Assembly: GCA_019114285.1 (NCBI GenBank)
Contig: DXFT01000057.1
Span: 1 to 39,135 of the forward strand
DNA: 39,135 bases
Source of the DNA: Candidatus Odoribacter faecigallinarum
GTDB lineage: Bacteria; Bacteroidota; Bacteroidia; Bacteroidales; Marinifilaceae
Direction of reading: 5' to 3'
Both the position numbers and the translations under genes were made by a program. The notes beneath the pieces were generated by a model. It did no database searches. It worked only from the letters and a program-made list of their open reading frames with translations, and was not told where the DNA came from. Positions 3,885 through 11,246 of this stretch are shown in pieces. How positions within the stretch are numbered: position 1 is the first letter of the stretch; each line of letters starts with the position of its first letter.

Positions 3885-4850
3885 ATGAAAACAGAAGTCG
3901 CATTAGGGATTGACATCGGCGGCACAAACACCGCATTCGGCTTTATTGACCAAGAAGGCAATTACCTGGCAGAAGGCAACATCCCGACAAACAACCACGA
4001 AGATCTCAGGGACTACCTGAAAGAATTGCACATGGCCATTGAAAACACGTTAGATTCCATACGGGACAATGCCATTCTCGTCGGCATAGGCATAGGTGCT
4101 CCCAGTGCCAATCATTTACAAGGCACTATAGACAATGCCGTCAATCTAAGGTGGCAGGGGGTACTTCCTTTCTGCGATATGATGCAGGAATACTATCCGG
4201 GCATTCCTGTTGTCATTGACAACGACGCCAATGCCGCCACCATTGGAGAAATGATTTACGGCGGAGCAAAAGGAATGAAAGATTTCGTCATGATTACCTT
4301 AGGGACAGGTGTAGGCAGCGGTTTTGTAGCTAACGGGCACATGATTTACGGACACGATGGTTTTGCCGGAGAATTCGGGCACATCATAGTTTCCCCCAAC
4401 GGACGGCAATGCGGCTGCGGAAGATGTGGATGTTTGGAAACATACGTCTCAGCGACTGGCGTGAAACGGACCGCATATAAAATGATGGCAAAATACAATT
4501 ACCCGAGCGAACTTCGCAACGTTCCCTTTAACGAAATGACTTCCAAAACCATTTGCGAAGCAGCCCTAAAAGGAGACTTGATTGCAATCAATACATTCAA
4601 ATATACAGCAAAAATGTTAGGCGAAGCCTTGGCAAATATTGTTGCCATTACCAGCCCAGAAGCCATATTCCTTATGGGAGGCCTCACAAAAGCCGGAGAT
4701 TTGCTTTTCAAGCCTACCAAAGAACACATGGAAATGAACATGCTGAAAATGTTCAGCAATAAGGTAAAACTCCTGCCGTCACAATTGACTAAAAATGTAG
4801 CCATATACGGGGCTGCCGCTTTAGTTTGGAAAGAATTGGACAAAAAATAA
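3885..4850 (+). CDS. ROK family sugar kinase (glucokinase-like)
   Basis: GIDIGGTNTAFGFID, LGTGVGSG, zinc motif CGCGRCGCLETYVS. Confidence 0.92.
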   Translation: MKTEVALGIDIGGTNTAFGFIDQEGNYLAEGNIPTNNHEDLRDYLKELHMAIENTLDSIRDNAILVGIGIGAPSANHLQGTIDNAVNLRWQGVLPFCDMMQEYYPGIPVVIDNDANAATIGEMIYGGAKGMKDFVMITLGTGVGSGFVANGHMIYGHDGFAGEFGHIIVSPNGRQCGCGRCGCLETYVSATGVKRTAYKMMAKYNYPSELRNVPFNEMTSKTICEAALKGDLIAINTFKYTAKMLGEALANIVAITSPEAIFLMGGLTKAGDLLFKPTKEHMEMNMLKMFSNKVKLLPSQLTKNVAIYGAAALVWKELDKK

Positions 4851-4856
4851 CCCATA

Positions 4857-4884
4857 GCCGGGGGCTGCTCAAAAAGCTCCCGGC
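4857..4884 (+). terminator. Terminator-like hairpin after ROK kinase
   Basis: GCCGGGGGCTGCTCAAAAAGCTCCCGGC inverted repeat just after the stop codon. Confidence 0.5.
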
Positions 4885-4918: not shown

Positions 4919-6352
4919 ATGAAACGCACCCTACATTTCCTCCTCTGCCTTGTCTTGTCAAGCGGATTGTACAATTGCCAGCCACAAGAAGATGAATTAA
5001 AAACCATAGAATATGTTGACCCGTTCATGTCCCAAGACATCACCAGCCATGGAAAACCGGAAACCGTATTGCCCTTTGGAGCTGTCAGGCTTGCCGCACA
5101 AACAGTGGATAGCGGAACAATCTCATCACTTGCATTCTACAATGCTGCCGACCAAGAGATTTCTCCGGAAGCGCGTGCCCTCCACTTTCTTCCGGTAACA
5201 ACTGCCCCCAACCCGGGAATAGACATACCTTCCTACATTTTAGAGAATCACGCCAACTTCCATAGCACAAACGAGCAGGCACGCCCGGGATACTATGCAG
5301 TCCAATTTGACAACGGCATCAAGACAGAAAGTGCCGTCACCAAGCGCTGTTGCATCATGTACTATCAATACCCCCAAAATGCAAAAAACGCCCTGCTGCT
5401 CAACCTACTTCCCCTTTCCCAGCAAGATTCTGTAAAAACCCAGATATGGAAAATCAACAACCGCACAATAGAGGGCTTCTGCAAATCACAAGGCACTGAA
5501 GACAACAGGCAAATCTATTTTGTCATTGAGTTCTCCCAAGACTGTCAAATATATATCGGAAAAAACACATTCCACCCATTGGGAAACAACCAGAAATTCA
5601 TCTCAGACGGATGTTGCCTCTGGATTGACTTCGGGCAACAAACGAACAAAATATTAGTCAAAGCCAGCCTTTCCACCGTTAATACGGAAGGAGCCGCAGC
5701 CAACCTCGAAAAAGAACTCTCACATTGGAGTTTTGACAAAGTAGAGCGGGATGCCAAACAGGAATGGAAACGTGAATTGCAAAACATCAAAATAACCGGA
5801 GAAAACGAACAGCAACTTAAAACATTTTATACCAAGCTATATCTATCCTACATGACGCCAGCCATTTTCTCTGATGTCAACGGCAATTATAACGGTCCGG
5901 ACGGAGAAATCCACAGTGCACACAAATATACCCACTATGCCGTCTGCCCTCCCTGGAACGACTGGGAAGATATACCGCCTTTATTAGCAATCACGCAAAA
6001 AAAGAAAGTCCGGGAAATGCTCCGTTCTTCCCAAAACGACCTCCGTTTCTCCGGCGTCCCACACCAAGCACAAAAGCCAGAAGACTTTCAAAACCAATTA
6101 CTGACTGCCATCGGGCTGGCACCTTCTGACCCGGACAACAACAAATTCCAGTTAGTAGCCCCGATCTTCGAACGGACAGTCATCCATTTAGGGCAAGAAA
6201 AACGTTTTGTCATCACAGTCACCCAACCCTCCGAAGCGCACATATACATCGAAGAAGCTTGGCTAAACAAACGGAAACTGGACCGCCTTTGGCTCACATT
6301 AGACGAAATCATGCAAGGCGGCAAACTAAACCTGATATTGACAGACAAATAA
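4919..6352 (+). CDS. GH92-like lipoprotein lacking the catalytic (alpha/alpha)6 barrel
   Basis: Lipobox GLYNC; N-terminal EYVDPF...LPFGAVRL and SDVNGNYNGPDGEIH, and C-terminal TLDEIMQGGKLNL resemble GH92, but only 477 aa with the central module missing. Confidence 0.7.
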   Translation: MKRTLHFLLCLVLSSGLYNCQPQEDELKTIEYVDPFMSQDITSHGKPETVLPFGAVRLAAQTVDSGTISSLAFYNAADQEISPEARALHFLPVTTAPNPGIDIPSYILENHANFHSTNEQARPGYYAVQFDNGIKTESAVTKRCCIMYYQYPQNAKNALLLNLLPLSQQDSVKTQIWKINNRTIEGFCKSQGTEDNRQIYFVIEFSQDCQIYIGKNTFHPLGNNQKFISDGCCLWIDFGQQTNKILVKASLSTVNTEGAAANLEKELSHWSFDKVERDAKQEWKRELQNIKITGENEQQLKTFYTKLYLSYMTPAIFSDVNGNYNGPDGEIHSAHKYTHYAVCPPWNDWEDIPPLLAITQKKKVREMLRSSQNDLRFSGVPHQAQKPEDFQNQLLTAIGLAPSDPDNNKFQLVAPIFERTVIHLGQEKRFVITVTQPSEAHIYIEEAWLNKRKLDRLWLTLDEIMQGGKLNLILTDK

Positions 6353-6392: not shown

Positions 6393-6424
6393 TTTGCCCT
6401 TTACGTTTTATTATCGTATCTTTG
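6393..6424 (+). promoter_or_regulatory. Bacteroidota promoter upstream of wzi-like gene
   Basis: TTTG (6393-6396), 20 nt spacer, TATCTTTG (6417-6424), start codon 22 nt downstream. Confidence 0.65.
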
Positions 6425-6445
6425 CGCGATGAAATAAGAATAACT

Positions 6446-7900
6446 ATGCGATTGTGTGCCATTTCAATTTGTGTATTAATACTTCCCCTTCACTTGTTTT
6501 GCCAAGAAAGGGAAGTTTCTTTTCAAGTGGAAGCAGGAGGAGCAACTTCGGCCAAACCTTTTTGGCTGCATTCCGGAACCCGGGGAAAAATATCTCCGGA
6601 CACTTATTTATGGGGAAACTTCGGAGCTTTTTCTGATTTTTCTAAAACGGACACCCGGGCTTTTGACTTCGCACTGGGAGCAGAAGGCACCGGTTCTCTG
6701 GGAAAAGACAAAAACCGATTATTTGTCAACCAACTTTTTGGCAAAATCAGATGGCAAAACCTAACCCTGAATGTAGGTCTTTGGAATCAACCTACCCAAT
6801 ACGACGGTTTATCTGCCAGCAATGGCAACATCCTTTATTCCAATAACACCCGCAACATGCCAGGCATTTCCATCGCTACTTGGGACTACATCCGCTTCCC
6901 TTGGTTTTTAGGCAAATGGCTTGCTTTCAAATTCGACTACTCTGAATACGTGATGCTCGATGACAGGCATGTCAAACATGCCCATGTACATCACAAGATG
7001 CTGGGAGGAAAAATCACCATCATTCCACAACTTAGCATAGAAGGCGGCATAGAAGACTTTGCACAATGGGGCGGAAAAACGGACGAAGGGAAAATACGCT
7101 ACAACCTTAAAGACTATCTCAAAATGGTCTGCATTGAATCTGGCGGAGAAAATGCCAGCCGTTCCGACCAAATCAACAAATTAGGCAACCACATCGGCAA
7201 CCACTTCATCCGTATCAACTACCAGGGCACCCGTTTCGCCGCCACCTTATTTTATAACCACCTTTTTGAGGACGGATCAGGCATGCGTTACCAAAACTGG
7301 CCGGACGGATTATACGGTATCTATTTTACCCGCAAGGATAAAAGCAAATGGTTTAAAAGCGTTGTATATGAACTATATTACACAAAAAGCCAAAGCGGTC
7401 CCCGCCACGACCGTCCTGCTACCGATGAAGAAATAGCCCAAAAAGACCCCAATGACCCATTCCAGGACAGGATTGTATTGGGAGGTAACGACAACTACCT
7501 GAACCACGGAGAATACAGTTCCGGCTGGAGCTTATATGGGCAAATGATTGGAGCTCCCTTCTTCACGCCCCGGAAAGCCGTGGACGGCATCATCTCCGGC
7601 ACTTACAACAACAGGTTTATCGCCCATCATTTAGGCATTTGCGGTGAATTGCCTTTATGGAATATCCGCTACAAGATAATGTGCAGCTATTCCTTAAATT
7701 ACGGGACTCACAGCGTTCCCTTCCGCGATGCCCAAGGAAATGCCATTACCCGCAGGCAAGCCAGCGCAGCATTGGAACTCATCCTTCCGGAAAACAAACT
7801 GCCTTTCACAACAACACTTCACCTTGGGGCAGACCGGGGCAGCTTGCTTCCTCATCGTTTTGGAGCCATGCTAACCATTTCCAAAACAGGTATCTTTTAA
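6446..7900 (+). CDS. Capsule assembly protein Wzi family outer membrane protein
   Basis: Signal peptide MRLCAISICVLILPLHLFCQ; Wzi-like motifs (GGATSAKPFWLHSGTRGKI, YYTKSQSGPRHDRP, GSLLPHRFGAMLTISKTGIF). ATG 6446 preferred over the TTG of the ORF track. Confidence 0.8.
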   Translation: MRLCAISICVLILPLHLFCQEREVSFQVEAGGATSAKPFWLHSGTRGKISPDTYLWGNFGAFSDFSKTDTRAFDFALGAEGTGSLGKDKNRLFVNQLFGKIRWQNLTLNVGLWNQPTQYDGLSASNGNILYSNNTRNMPGISIATWDYIRFPWFLGKWLAFKFDYSEYVMLDDRHVKHAHVHHKMLGGKITIIPQLSIEGGIEDFAQWGGKTDEGKIRYNLKDYLKMVCIESGGENASRSDQINKLGNHIGNHFIRINYQGTRFAATLFYNHLFEDGSGMRYQNWPDGLYGIYFTRKDKSKWFKSVVYELYYTKSQSGPRHDRPATDEEIAQKDPNDPFQDRIVLGGNDNYLNHGEYSSGWSLYGQMIGAPFFTPRKAVDGIISGTYNNRFIAHHLGICGELPLWNIRYKIMCSYSLNYGTHSVPFRDAQGNAITRRQASAALELILPENKLPFTTTLHLGADRGSLLPHRFGAMLTISKTGIF

Positions 7901-7926
7901 CACATCACCCCATAAACGCAGCACTT

Positions 7927-9999
7927 ATGATAAATATTCTCTTTTCAGATTCATGCAGGACAGCCTTTTGGGGCGGAGTGGAAAAATGGATTACAACTTT
8001 GGGAGAGGAATTAAACAAACAAAATTACAACGTCCATCTGATATGTCGTCCCCATAGTCTGTTAGGAGAAAGGGCGCAGTCCGTGGGACTTGCCGTACAC
8101 CATGCCACATTCAAAAATAGCCTGGACATCACCACAACTCTCAAAATCCTGTCCCTCATTCGCAAGCAAAAAATAAACGTTATTATTTGTGCCAAGAACT
8201 TAGATACAAAACTTGCAGGGCTTGCCGGAAAAATAGCCGGCATTCCCGTCATCTCCCGACAAGGGCTCGCAATCATACCGGATAATTGGAAATACCGGTT
8301 TTTAGTCAAGCACTTCACTACATCCATGATTACAAACACCATAACCATTAAACAACAATATGAAAACTACTCTTGGTTCCCCAAAGACCACATTCAAGTC
8401 ATTTACAATGGAGTAACCCAACCTCAAAAAACAACCAACAAAGAAAATATCCGAGAAAAATACGGTATCAGCCCCGAAGAAAAACTCATACTCAGCGCTG
8501 GACGAATCTCTAACCAAAAAGGATTCATCTATCTTATTGAAGCTGCCCGTATGGCGCAAGAGCAGCACCTGCCTTGGAAATTTCTTCTACTGGGTGAAGG
8601 CGAAGAACGTCCCCATTTACTCCAACTAATTGAACACTACGAATTAAAAAACATACAACTCCCCGGCTTTCAGACCAATATGGAAGACTTTTACCGGGCA
8701 GCAGACCTTTTTGTGCTTTCCTCCTTGTCCGAAGGCACACCCAATGTAGTACTCGAAGCCATGCTTTACGGGTGTCCGGTTGTTGCTACCAATGTAAACG
8801 GCGTACAAGAAGTGATAGACAATGGCATAGACGGCTGGATTATTCCTCCTAAGGACAGCGAAGCTATTTTTCATACCATCAACGAAAATATAAACAACCT
8901 TGAACGGCTGGCAGAAGTGTCACTACACGCTAAAAAGAAAATACAGGAAAAATTTACGATGGAACAGTCTGTAAAACATTTCTCTGCTTACATTGACCAT
9001 ATTCTTCACCCCGTAAAAAAAGTCATCATCCGAACCCCCAACTTTTTAGGTGACACCATCAACACTACCCCTTGCATACAACTTGTCAAACAAGAATACC
9101 CGGACGCGAAGCTTATTATCGTAGGGCCTGACTTCGTTCGCGATATTTTCAAGTACGAAGAAAGGGTATCCCGGTTCATAACCTTCCCCCTCAACCGCAA
9201 AAAAAACATAACCACCTTCTTCCATCTGCTCAAAGCCATACACACGGAAAAAGGTGATTTGGGCATTATCTTCGTCAACACCTTTGTTTCCGCTTTGCAA
9301 TTCAAACTCGCAGGCGTAAAACGTAGCATTGGTTACTCTTTGGAAAAACGAAGTGCCTTATTGGATTTTTCCCTCCCCCTCAACCGAAACAAACATTACA
9401 TCAACCGCTACGCCAATCTTTTCAATGAATATTTAGGCAATAAATACATCTACCTGCCTGACCTTTATCTGCCCGTCAGCGGAAAAAAGACTTTCCACTT
9501 CGACAACAACCGCCCCACCATTGGTTTCTATCCTGGAGGAAAACATAAAGGCTACCGCGCCTACCCTCAAGACTACGCCATCCAACTTATCCGCGGTCTA
9601 AATCACCAAGGTTTTAATGTAATCCTCCTCGGCGACCAACAAGACGCCCCAGAACAAAGCAGATACATCAGTGAAGTACGTGGTGACAACATCATAAACC
9701 TCGCCGGACAAACTGACATCGAGGAATTTTTCAATACCATCAACCACCTCGACCTCCTCATCACCATTGACTCTGCCGCCATGCACGCGGCAGCAGCCCT
9801 GCACACCCCCTTCATCGCCCTTATGGGACTGTCCACCAGCCCCACCTCCACTATTGTACCGAAAGTCCCCTTTGGCAAAATACTGAAAATAGAAAACAAC
9901 CTCATCCGCGAGGAAGACTACATCCGCAACCTCACCCCCGACATCGTCCTCCATGCCGTTCAGGAGATATTGCCCTCCAATTCAGCAAACCGGTCATAA
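7927..9999 (+). CDS. Bifunctional glycosyltransferase: GT4-like N-terminal domain fused to GT9 (heptosyltransferase-like) C-terminal domain
   Basis: One continuous frame: GT4 motifs (LILSAGRISNQKGFIYLIEA, DLFVLSSLSEGTPNVVLEAM) then GT9 motifs (VIIRTPNFLGDTINTTPC, IDSAAMHAAAALHTPFIALMG). Start set to ATG 7927 after wzi. Confidence 0.85.
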   Translation: MINILFSDSCRTAFWGGVEKWITTLGEELNKQNYNVHLICRPHSLLGERAQSVGLAVHHATFKNSLDITTTLKILSLIRKQKINVIICAKNLDTKLAGLAGKIAGIPVISRQGLAIIPDNWKYRFLVKHFTTSMITNTITIKQQYENYSWFPKDHIQVIYNGVTQPQKTTNKENIREKYGISPEEKLILSAGRISNQKGFIYLIEAARMAQEQHLPWKFLLLGEGEERPHLLQLIEHYELKNIQLPGFQTNMEDFYRAADLFVLSSLSEGTPNVVLEAMLYGCPVVATNVNGVQEVIDNGIDGWIIPPKDSEAIFHTINENINNLERLAEVSLHAKKKIQEKFTMEQSVKHFSAYIDHILHPVKKVIIRTPNFLGDTINTTPCIQLVKQEYPDAKLIIVGPDFVRDIFKYEERVSRFITFPLNRKKNITTFFHLLKAIHTEKGDLGIIFVNTFVSALQFKLAGVKRSIGYSLEKRSALLDFSLPLNRNKHYINRYANLFNEYLGNKYIYLPDLYLPVSGKKTFHFDNNRPTIGFYPGGKHKGYRAYPQDYAIQLIRGLNHQGFNVILLGDQQDAPEQSRYISEVRGDNIINLAGQTDIEEFFNTINHLDLLITIDSAAMHAAAALHTPFIALMGLSTSPTSTIVPKVPFGKILKIENNLIREEDYIRNLTPDIVLHAVQEILPSNSANRS

Positions 10000-11246
10000 A
10001 ACACATAAAATAATGCTAAAAAGAAAACAACAACCGGAAGGGCATCATTCACTACCAACTGAACCTCAAACTGACAATCCACAAAAAGCGCTACAATAAT
10101 GGACAACGCTAAAAAAGAATAACATTTAGACCGCAACATCCGAATAACAGGCAGGAAAAACCAACTCAATATAAAACACAATCCAACAATACCCAACCAC
10201 ATCCAATACTGAAGAAAAGAATTATGGCTATGTGTCAAGGCAGCAACAGTTGTATTCCCGGAATCCCGGTACCACTGCTGGGAAACCCGTTCCGTATAAA
10301 CCCCCAGCCCCCAAACGCCCCATTCTCCAATATGATCGAAACAAGTCTTATAAAAAACCACCCGAGGGGTTATAGAGCCTCCCCCTTCTAACCGTCCTTC
10401 ACGTACATCCTCTATCTCCCGCTCCACCTGCTCCCAACGGCGGTCAAAATTTGCCGGGCGAAATATATAGGCACCTGCCACCAACAGCAACAACACGCCC
10501 AGCAGCCCCCAACGATAACGCCCTGACAAACGGACTAAAAAATAACCATTCAACAAAACAAAACCACACAAAAAGCCCAAAATAGAACTCTTCGTCACTG
10601 TCAAAGAAAGAAACCAGGCAAATATCAAAAAAGCGGCAAACCCCAATACCTTCTTCCCTATATTTGTTGATATCATGCCCCAAGCATAAGCAATCAATGC
10701 CGCTATATATATATGCATTGCCTCCGCATCCAAATACACCCGTCCTCCTAAAAAATACTTCGTAAAACCAAAGCGGGAATTATACAAATAAGCCACAGCC
10801 TTCCCCGGAGTCTTAAGCAAATCCCAACCGGCAACATGAAAAAGCATCAGAAAATTAAACAAAAACACACCGACACAAAAACACAGCAAAAAACGCTTTA
10901 ATATCTTCAAATCGATAAAAAAACGACACGAAACCACATAAACGACCACCAACAAGAAAGCCAATGCCAGTTTCTCAAATACCCCAAACGAAGGTTTAAA
11001 ATCCATATACTTACCACCTTGGATAATAAAAAAAGCATGCACAGCGGCATAGGCCATGACTACTACAGGTATCAACAAATAATATTTATAACGCCTCAGC
11101 AATTGATAAAAATCTTTCCTATACTTCACAAGATTAAACAACAATGCCACACCGATAATTGCTACCTGCAACCCTTCAAACAAAGCCCCCCAAGTCCCCA
11201 ACAAAAAACCAATAAATAGAAATAACTTCACATCTAAATCTTTCAT
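9960..11246 (-). CDS. O-antigen ligase / polymerase family membrane protein
   Basis: 428 aa, about 10 TM segments, periplasmic loop with ALTHSHNSFLQYWMWLGIVGL (ligase H-S-H-N signature). Confidence 0.85.
   Translation of the reverse strand: MKDLDVKLFLFIGFLLGTWGALFEGLQVAIIGVALLFNLVKYRKDFYQLLRRYKYYLLIPVVVMAYAAVHAFFIIQGGKYMDFKPSFGVFEKLALAFLLVVVYVVSCRFFIDLKILKRFLLCFCVGVFLFNFLMLFHVAGWDLLKTPGKAVAYLYNSRFGFTKYFLGGRVYLDAEAMHIYIAALIAYAWGMISTNIGKKVLGFAAFLIFAWFLSLTVTKSSILGFLCGFVLLNGYFLVRLSGRYRWGLLGVLLLLVAGAYIFRPANFDRRWEQVEREIEDVREGRLEGGGSITPRVVFYKTCFDHIGEWGVWGLGVYTERVSQQWYRDSGNTTVAALTHSHNSFLQYWMWLGIVGLCFILSWFFLPVIRMLRSKCYSFLALSIIVALFVDCQFEVQLVVNDALPVVVFFLALFYVFYDRFAELEGNIS

Follow-up and report, generated by a model that had tools for sequence, protein, structure and literature searches.

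A GH92-derived putative lipoprotein of Odoribacter that lacks the catalytic barrel is kept by purifying selection and probably has a non-enzymatic role

Does the beta-sandwich/spine half of GH92 enzymes from gut Bacteroidales carry a non-catalytic function? This question is made directly testable by a gene in the window analyzed here, a 39,135-nt stretch of contig DXFT01000057.1 from Candidatus Odoribacter faecigallinarum, whose genome (labeled G000) is a 2.25-Mb draft of 200 contigs with 88% completeness. An original prediction, made from the letters of the window, described the gene as encoding a GH92-like lipoprotein without a catalytic barrel, possibly a non-catalytic glycan-binding or surface protein rather than a fresh pseudogene. 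According to the list of open reading frames, its 477 codons are indeed uninterrupted. The parts of the gene and its surroundings are collected in Table 1.

Searches with profile models confirmed the proposed GH92 ancestry. The model of the GH92 N-terminal beta-sandwich domain (PF17678, Glyco_hydro_92N) matches over its whole length (positions 1-236 of 236, E=5e-31), and the catalytic-domain model PF07971 matches in two pieces with a total E of 6e-45, the better piece (aa 258-380) covering positions 1-121 of 464. Solved GH92 structures likewise align in two pieces, an N-terminal part and the C-terminal ∼80 aa (aa ∼394-477), as illustrated by 6f8z with E=1e-38. The (alpha/alpha)6 catalytic barrel is incomplete, being represented at best by those 121 model positions plus the C-terminal end, and the score against the NCBIfam GH92 model TIGR01180 (209.5 bits) stays below the curated cut-off of 249.55. 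In an alignment to the syntenic full-length ortholog of the Odoribacter genome G007, residues ∼382-649 of the latter (268 residues) are opposed by a mere 23 residues (aa 371-393) in the window protein. Thus, the barrel has been lost as proposed, except that the barrel domain has kept its first strands and first helix. Similarly, the N-terminal sandwich and the C-terminal tail are retained, with the correction that FYTKLYLSYMTPAIFSDVNGNYNGPDGEIH, taken before as part of the sandwich, lies in spine helix 2 and at the beginning of the catalytic domain.

The lost segment held the motifs TEGNAWQY (general acid), GNEDCGQM (general base), WELAGNETxCM, and GNEPSHH. Following published residue roles (PMC5930347, PMC10167667), the general acid Glu (E533 of BT3990) and the general base Asp (D644; GN[DE]D motif) both fall inside it; the published base Asp633 of BT3965 corresponds to the second Asp of GNDDCG. 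Of the −1 subsite, to which the Asp of WDT, the Trp, Cys, and Met of WELAGNETxCM, and a Gly loop of the N-domain contribute, WDT has become WND, and WELAGNET and the SGTG loop are absent. None of the five barrel-less proteins described below has intact N-domain pocket loops: GWDWxSGYHYSD and HLSGTGIGD are either deleted or scrambled. Judged from its sequence, the product is incapable of GH92 mannosidase activity by the known mechanism, in line with the original prediction, and its gene is better not annotated as an alpha-mannosidase, since the protein shares the ancestry of GH92 while failing on the catalytic features of the family. Annotation pipelines may nevertheless count such genes as mannosidases, given the strong Pfam match to the catalytic domain of a protein whose catalytic residues are gone.

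Table 1. Features of the GH92-derived gene and its neighborhood in the window
Feature	Position	Strand	Basis
ROK-family sugar kinase, conserved upstream neighbor	3885..4850	+	Pfam, synteny
10-bp RNA hairpin between ROK and GH92-derived gene	4857..4884	+	dG -22.3, z -3.8
Barrel-less GH92-derived lipoprotein gene, 477 aa	4919..6352	+	Pfam, TIGR01180, solved structures, ortholog alignment
Signal peptide ending in lipoprotein Cys20, then acidic residues QPQEDE	4919..4978	+	Cys20 invariance, lipobox table
GH92 N-terminal beta-sandwich, aa 32-252	5012..5674	+	PF17678 whole-model match
Former mannose-pocket loops of N-domain, aa 61-118, deleted or scrambled	5099..5272	+	Motif table; identity; kept residues 0.21
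Last strand and spine helices 1 and 2, aa 241-320 (LSHWSFDKVERDAKQEWKREL ... FYTKLYLSY), best conserved part	5639..5878	+	88% identity in aa 241-290; general GH92 residues kept 0.89; spine naming after PMC5930347
Strands and first helix of barrel domain, aa 321-370; WDT to WND	5879..6028	+	Pfam, alignment, motif table
Junction, aa 371-393, in place of ∼268 aa of barrel	6029..6097	+	Alignment to G007 ortholog; same place in G003
C-terminal GH92 strands, aa 394-477	6098..6349	+	Second match to solved structures
Bacteroidetes-type promoter motif TTTG-N20-TATCTTTG before Wzi gene	6393..6424	+	Motif scan
Wzi-like outer-membrane protein, usual downstream neighbor in family	6422..7900	+	Pfam, synteny; TTG start as listed, ATG at 6446

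Relatives were compared among eight Odoribacter genomes, in the wider family (60 genomes), and in the order (393 genomes), and 17 orthologs were identified. A second Odoribacter species (G003, CALUKF01), represented by an independent metagenome assembly, encodes an ortholog that agrees with the window protein in length and junction and is 62% identical to it. Four of the eight Odoribacter genomes (G007, G001, G004, and G002) carry full-length orthologs of 734-739 aa, and the ortholog of G006 is broken by contig ends. The deletion is therefore not confined to one strain among otherwise full-length orthologs; both forms exist. In the wider family, full-length orthologs are found in g3, g5, and g17, and further barrel-less proteins, consisting of N- and C-terminal parts, in G020 (431 aa) and G021 (423 aa) of g4 and in G033 (420 aa; g8), with junctions that differ from the one shared by G000 and G003. 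The barrel-less set thus comprises five sequences, one genome per species, mostly from metagenome assemblies. G025 (g6; L074, ∼7987-10095) has a full-length protein of 702 aa in which every catalytic motif is lost. In G032 (g8, a congener of G033), IspD directly follows ROK with no GH92 gene between them, showing that the gene can be dispensed with. One lineage-specific mannosidase gene in one fixed chromosomal slot thus encodes intact enzymes in some genomes, a dead protein of full length in another, and barrel-less proteins in several more, and is missing altogether in yet another. Outside this family, no barrel-less form was confirmed in the 393 genomes of the order, with at most four candidates scored per genome: short GH92 frames in G109, G430, G392, and G296 run off contig ends, and those in G317 and G215 are full length or frame-shifted. 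A scan of viral contigs found no further relatives.

Two side observations concern other members of this series. The GH92 ortholog of G025 clusters with the barrel-less proteins of g4, and catalysis may thus have gone before the barrel there. In the nearly complete genome G014, the syntenic ortholog (L071:7376-9594) is split by a frameshift into frames of 592 and 203 aa, reflecting either a real inactivation or a sequencing error.

Barrel-less and full-length genes share the order YbbR-CoaE-TerB/DnaJ-DUF5606-MTase-ROK-[GH92], exceptions being G033, where the upstream set is missing, and G007 and G004, which lack ROK at the site. The window gene descends, in synteny, from one that encoded a complete GH92 alpha-mannosidase, a lipoprotein present in the Odoribacter family. 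Downstream, the Wzi gene follows in most genomes, though it is not near the GH92-derived gene in G003. Flanking genes are mostly of the housekeeping type, and IspD, which has been relocated elsewhere in G000, G003, and G020, is single-copy in 10/10 genomes checked; both observations weaken a polysaccharide locus as the setting of the gene, and none of the neighbors points to a binding partner for its product. As for other details of the site, hairpins occur at the place of the window's own in G003 and G001 as well, with unrelated sequence and no T run. Between G000 and G003, the ROK kinase, absent from the site in G007, G004, and G033, shows 94% identity, compared to 63-85% for the neighbors.

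How often was the barrel lost? In a tree of six neighbor proteins, G000 and G003 nest among the full-length Odoribacter genomes, and G020 and G021 fall with g3 and g6. On the retained GH92 columns, the approximately unbiased (AU) test rejected a single clade of all five barrel-less proteins (p-AU 0.003) and also a clade of four, that is, G000/G003 with G020/G021 and without G033 (p-AU 0.007). Because long-branch attraction would pull barrel-less sequences together, the rejection of a single clade is conservative. For G033, the same columns gave p values of 0.07 for placement with G000/G003 and 0.215 for placement with G020/G021; its different junction and different genus argue for a third event. 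Taken together, these analyses indicate that the barrel was lost independently at least two times in the family.

Between G000 and G003, the barrel-less gene shows a dN of 0.265-0.277 and a saturated dS (ML, 2.6), corresponding to an omega of about 0.1 and resembling the neighboring genes CoaE (dN/dS, 0.24/2.1) and MTase (0.26/2.9). These values were obtained by NG86 and ML, YN00 being mostly unusable at saturated dS. Codon positions 1, 2, and 3 differ at 0.30, 0.18, and 0.56, respectively. In a neutral simulation, by comparison, 0.1 substitutions per site already put stops into 300/300 copies. The gene thus has neither the disrupted frame nor the omega near 1 of a pseudogene, and the earlier view that it is not a fresh one is further borne out by the same-junction ortholog and the independent barrel losses elsewhere. 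Nonetheless, the branches leading to barrel-less proteins exceed those of full-length orthologs several-fold in length, indicating that constraint has been partly relaxed, i.e., reduced but not removed. By contrast, a second GH92 relic in G007 (L029:889-1635; G007:C1 ∼3985638-3986384) is a true pseudogene, its reading frame being interrupted by several stops and broken as well.

Constraint is unevenly spread along the protein. Identity between G000 and G003 reaches 88% in aa 241-290, which span spine helix 1 and the strand before it, the last of the sandwich, and 75% in aa 426-477, compared to 28% in aa 61-118, the fastest-diverging region of the barrel-less pair, for which full-length pairs show about 70-81%. 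Likewise, the barrel-less proteins keep 0.89 of the conserved general GH92 residues in the spine-helix-1 region versus 0.21 in the pocket loops; the corresponding fractions in G025 are 0.93 for the helix-1 region and the C-terminus, 0.51 for the barrel, and 0.44 for the pocket loops. What selection has retained comprises the lipoprotein Cys, the rear side of the beta-sandwich, both spine helices, and the strands at the C-terminus. Thirteen residues (N132, C144, K178, R182, E204, Q207, G239, T242, H269, S271, K274, V275, and Y311) are invariant in all five barrel-less proteins and present in ≥92% of full-length orthologs, as opposed to ≤25% of other GH92 proteins, and no invariant residue new to the barrel-less forms was found among the five. 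The conserved features therefore predate barrel loss. These 13 lineage-specific residues could be structural rather than part of an interface.

In the proposed lipobox, GLYNC, Cys20 is invariant in 5/5 barrel-less proteins, but the Asn before it (LYN-C) in the window protein is non-canonical; the lipobox of most relatives is canonical. The acidic residues behind Cys20 resemble Bacteroidetes lipoprotein export signals (PMC5080379), and together with the lipoprotein Cys they make a surface location plausible.

What, then, might the protein do? The leftover lipid-anchored product probably has a non-enzymatic job. More specifically, we lean toward a non-catalytic envelope protein, anchored by its lipid, that uses its sandwich/spine face to contact a binding partner, a role older than the barrel losses. 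In GH92 enzymes, helix 1 lies behind the sandwich, helix 2 is a rigid backbone joining both halves, and the space beneath the sandwich is packed with short strands and the first helix of the barrel (PMC5930347). The parts that purifying selection has kept (the beta-sandwich, two spine helices, the first barrel strands and helix, and the C-terminal strands) may accordingly fold as a compact sandwich-plus-spine unit; an AlphaFold model of the window protein, built from two sequences only, reached a pLDDT of 31 and a pTM of 0.23. Sitting in the outer membrane, such a unit would contact a protein or another envelope component via its conserved face and not via the old mannose pocket. If this binding role already resided in the full-length enzyme, different lineages could have dropped the barrel and kept the rest.

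Beta-sandwiches are common glycan binders, and a lectin-like product, whose N-terminal sandwich or a new site on it would bind mannose-containing or other surface glycans without cutting them, deserves consideration, even if we think it not very likely. The lipoprotein anchor is kept, and in the parent enzyme, the GH92 N-domain takes part in binding the sugar (PMC5930347). Sugar contacts in GH92 need both domains, however, and the N-domain loops are deleted or scrambled not only in the five barrel-less proteins but also in G025, their region (aa 61-118) being the least conserved; nor do the barrel-less proteins show any newly gained invariant residues. With the pocket gone on its barrel side as well as on its N-domain side, glycan binding through the ancestral site, as contemplated in the original prediction, is unlikely, though a new glycan site may exist elsewhere on the protein.

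The series from intact enzyme over the dead full-length protein of G025 and the barrel-less forms to absence in G032, combined with the accelerated evolution of the barrel-less branches, could also be read as slow decay of a gene that became dispensable several times, with point mutation followed by barrel deletion and finally by total loss, the barrel-less genes being transient intermediates of little function. We consider this clearly unlikely in view of the low omega between two species at saturated dS, a frame that is open where neutrality predicts many stops, the patterned constraint, and the quite different appearance of the true GH92 pseudogene in the genus. It is highly improbable that the protein regulates active GH92 paralogs of its own cell, acts as a decoy for them, or assembles with them: G000, G003, G020, and G021 do encode further GH92 proteins with barrels, but no barrel match exists anywhere in the 96% complete genome of G033, where partnering with an active GH92 paralog is thus rejected. 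Last, the fragmented state of the window's draft genome might raise suspicion of an assembly or binning artefact in a single metagenome-assembled genome. This probability is practically negligible; the idea is refuted by the same junction in the independent G003 assembly, along with the frame preserved across it and similar forms in three further genomes.

Several known classes can be compared with the window protein. With the GH92 alpha-mannosidases BT3990, BT3130, and BT3965, it shares, by homology, the beta-sandwich at the N-terminus, both spine helices, the start of the barrel domain, and the C-terminal strands, and its syntenic full-length orthologs have intact motifs; it differs in lacking the general acid and base, the Ca site, the −1 subsite, the N-domain pocket loops, and about 268 barrel residues. 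Like pseudoenzymes (reviewed in PMC10211241 and PMC5106787), it derives from an enzyme, has lost the catalytic motifs, and is kept by selection in two species. Whereas most pseudoenzymes keep the complete catalytic fold with few residues changed, here the catalytic barrel itself was excised, and more than once.

Bacteroidetes also possess surface glycan-binding lipoproteins of the SusE/F type and carbohydrate-binding modules (CBMs), which the window protein would resemble as a non-catalytic, lipid-anchored beta-sandwich protein beside enzymes. Unlike these, it is GH92-derived, has no known binding residues, and is probably not encoded in a polysaccharide utilization locus, with no SusC/D neighbors among the genes examined around it. 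The open-access literature that we searched yielded no report of barrel-less GH92 proteins, and a non-enzymatic role of such a lipoprotein is probably undescribed in that literature. Tentatively, one might go further and see in this family a second, non-enzymatic envelope role of a GH92 lipoprotein, essential enough for its sandwich and spine to have been kept after independent barrel excision in two or three lineages and inactivation by point mutation in another, which would amount to a recurrent conversion of enzyme to scaffold.

Two observations on the surrounding window may be added. The promoter motif TTTG-N18-22-TAnnTTTG occurs at seven sites compared to 1.9 expected, one of them directly before the Wzi gene. 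Further downstream, the single frame at 7657-9999 encodes a GT4 glycosyltransferase fused to one of the GT9 type and begins, as listed, before the Wzi gene has ended.
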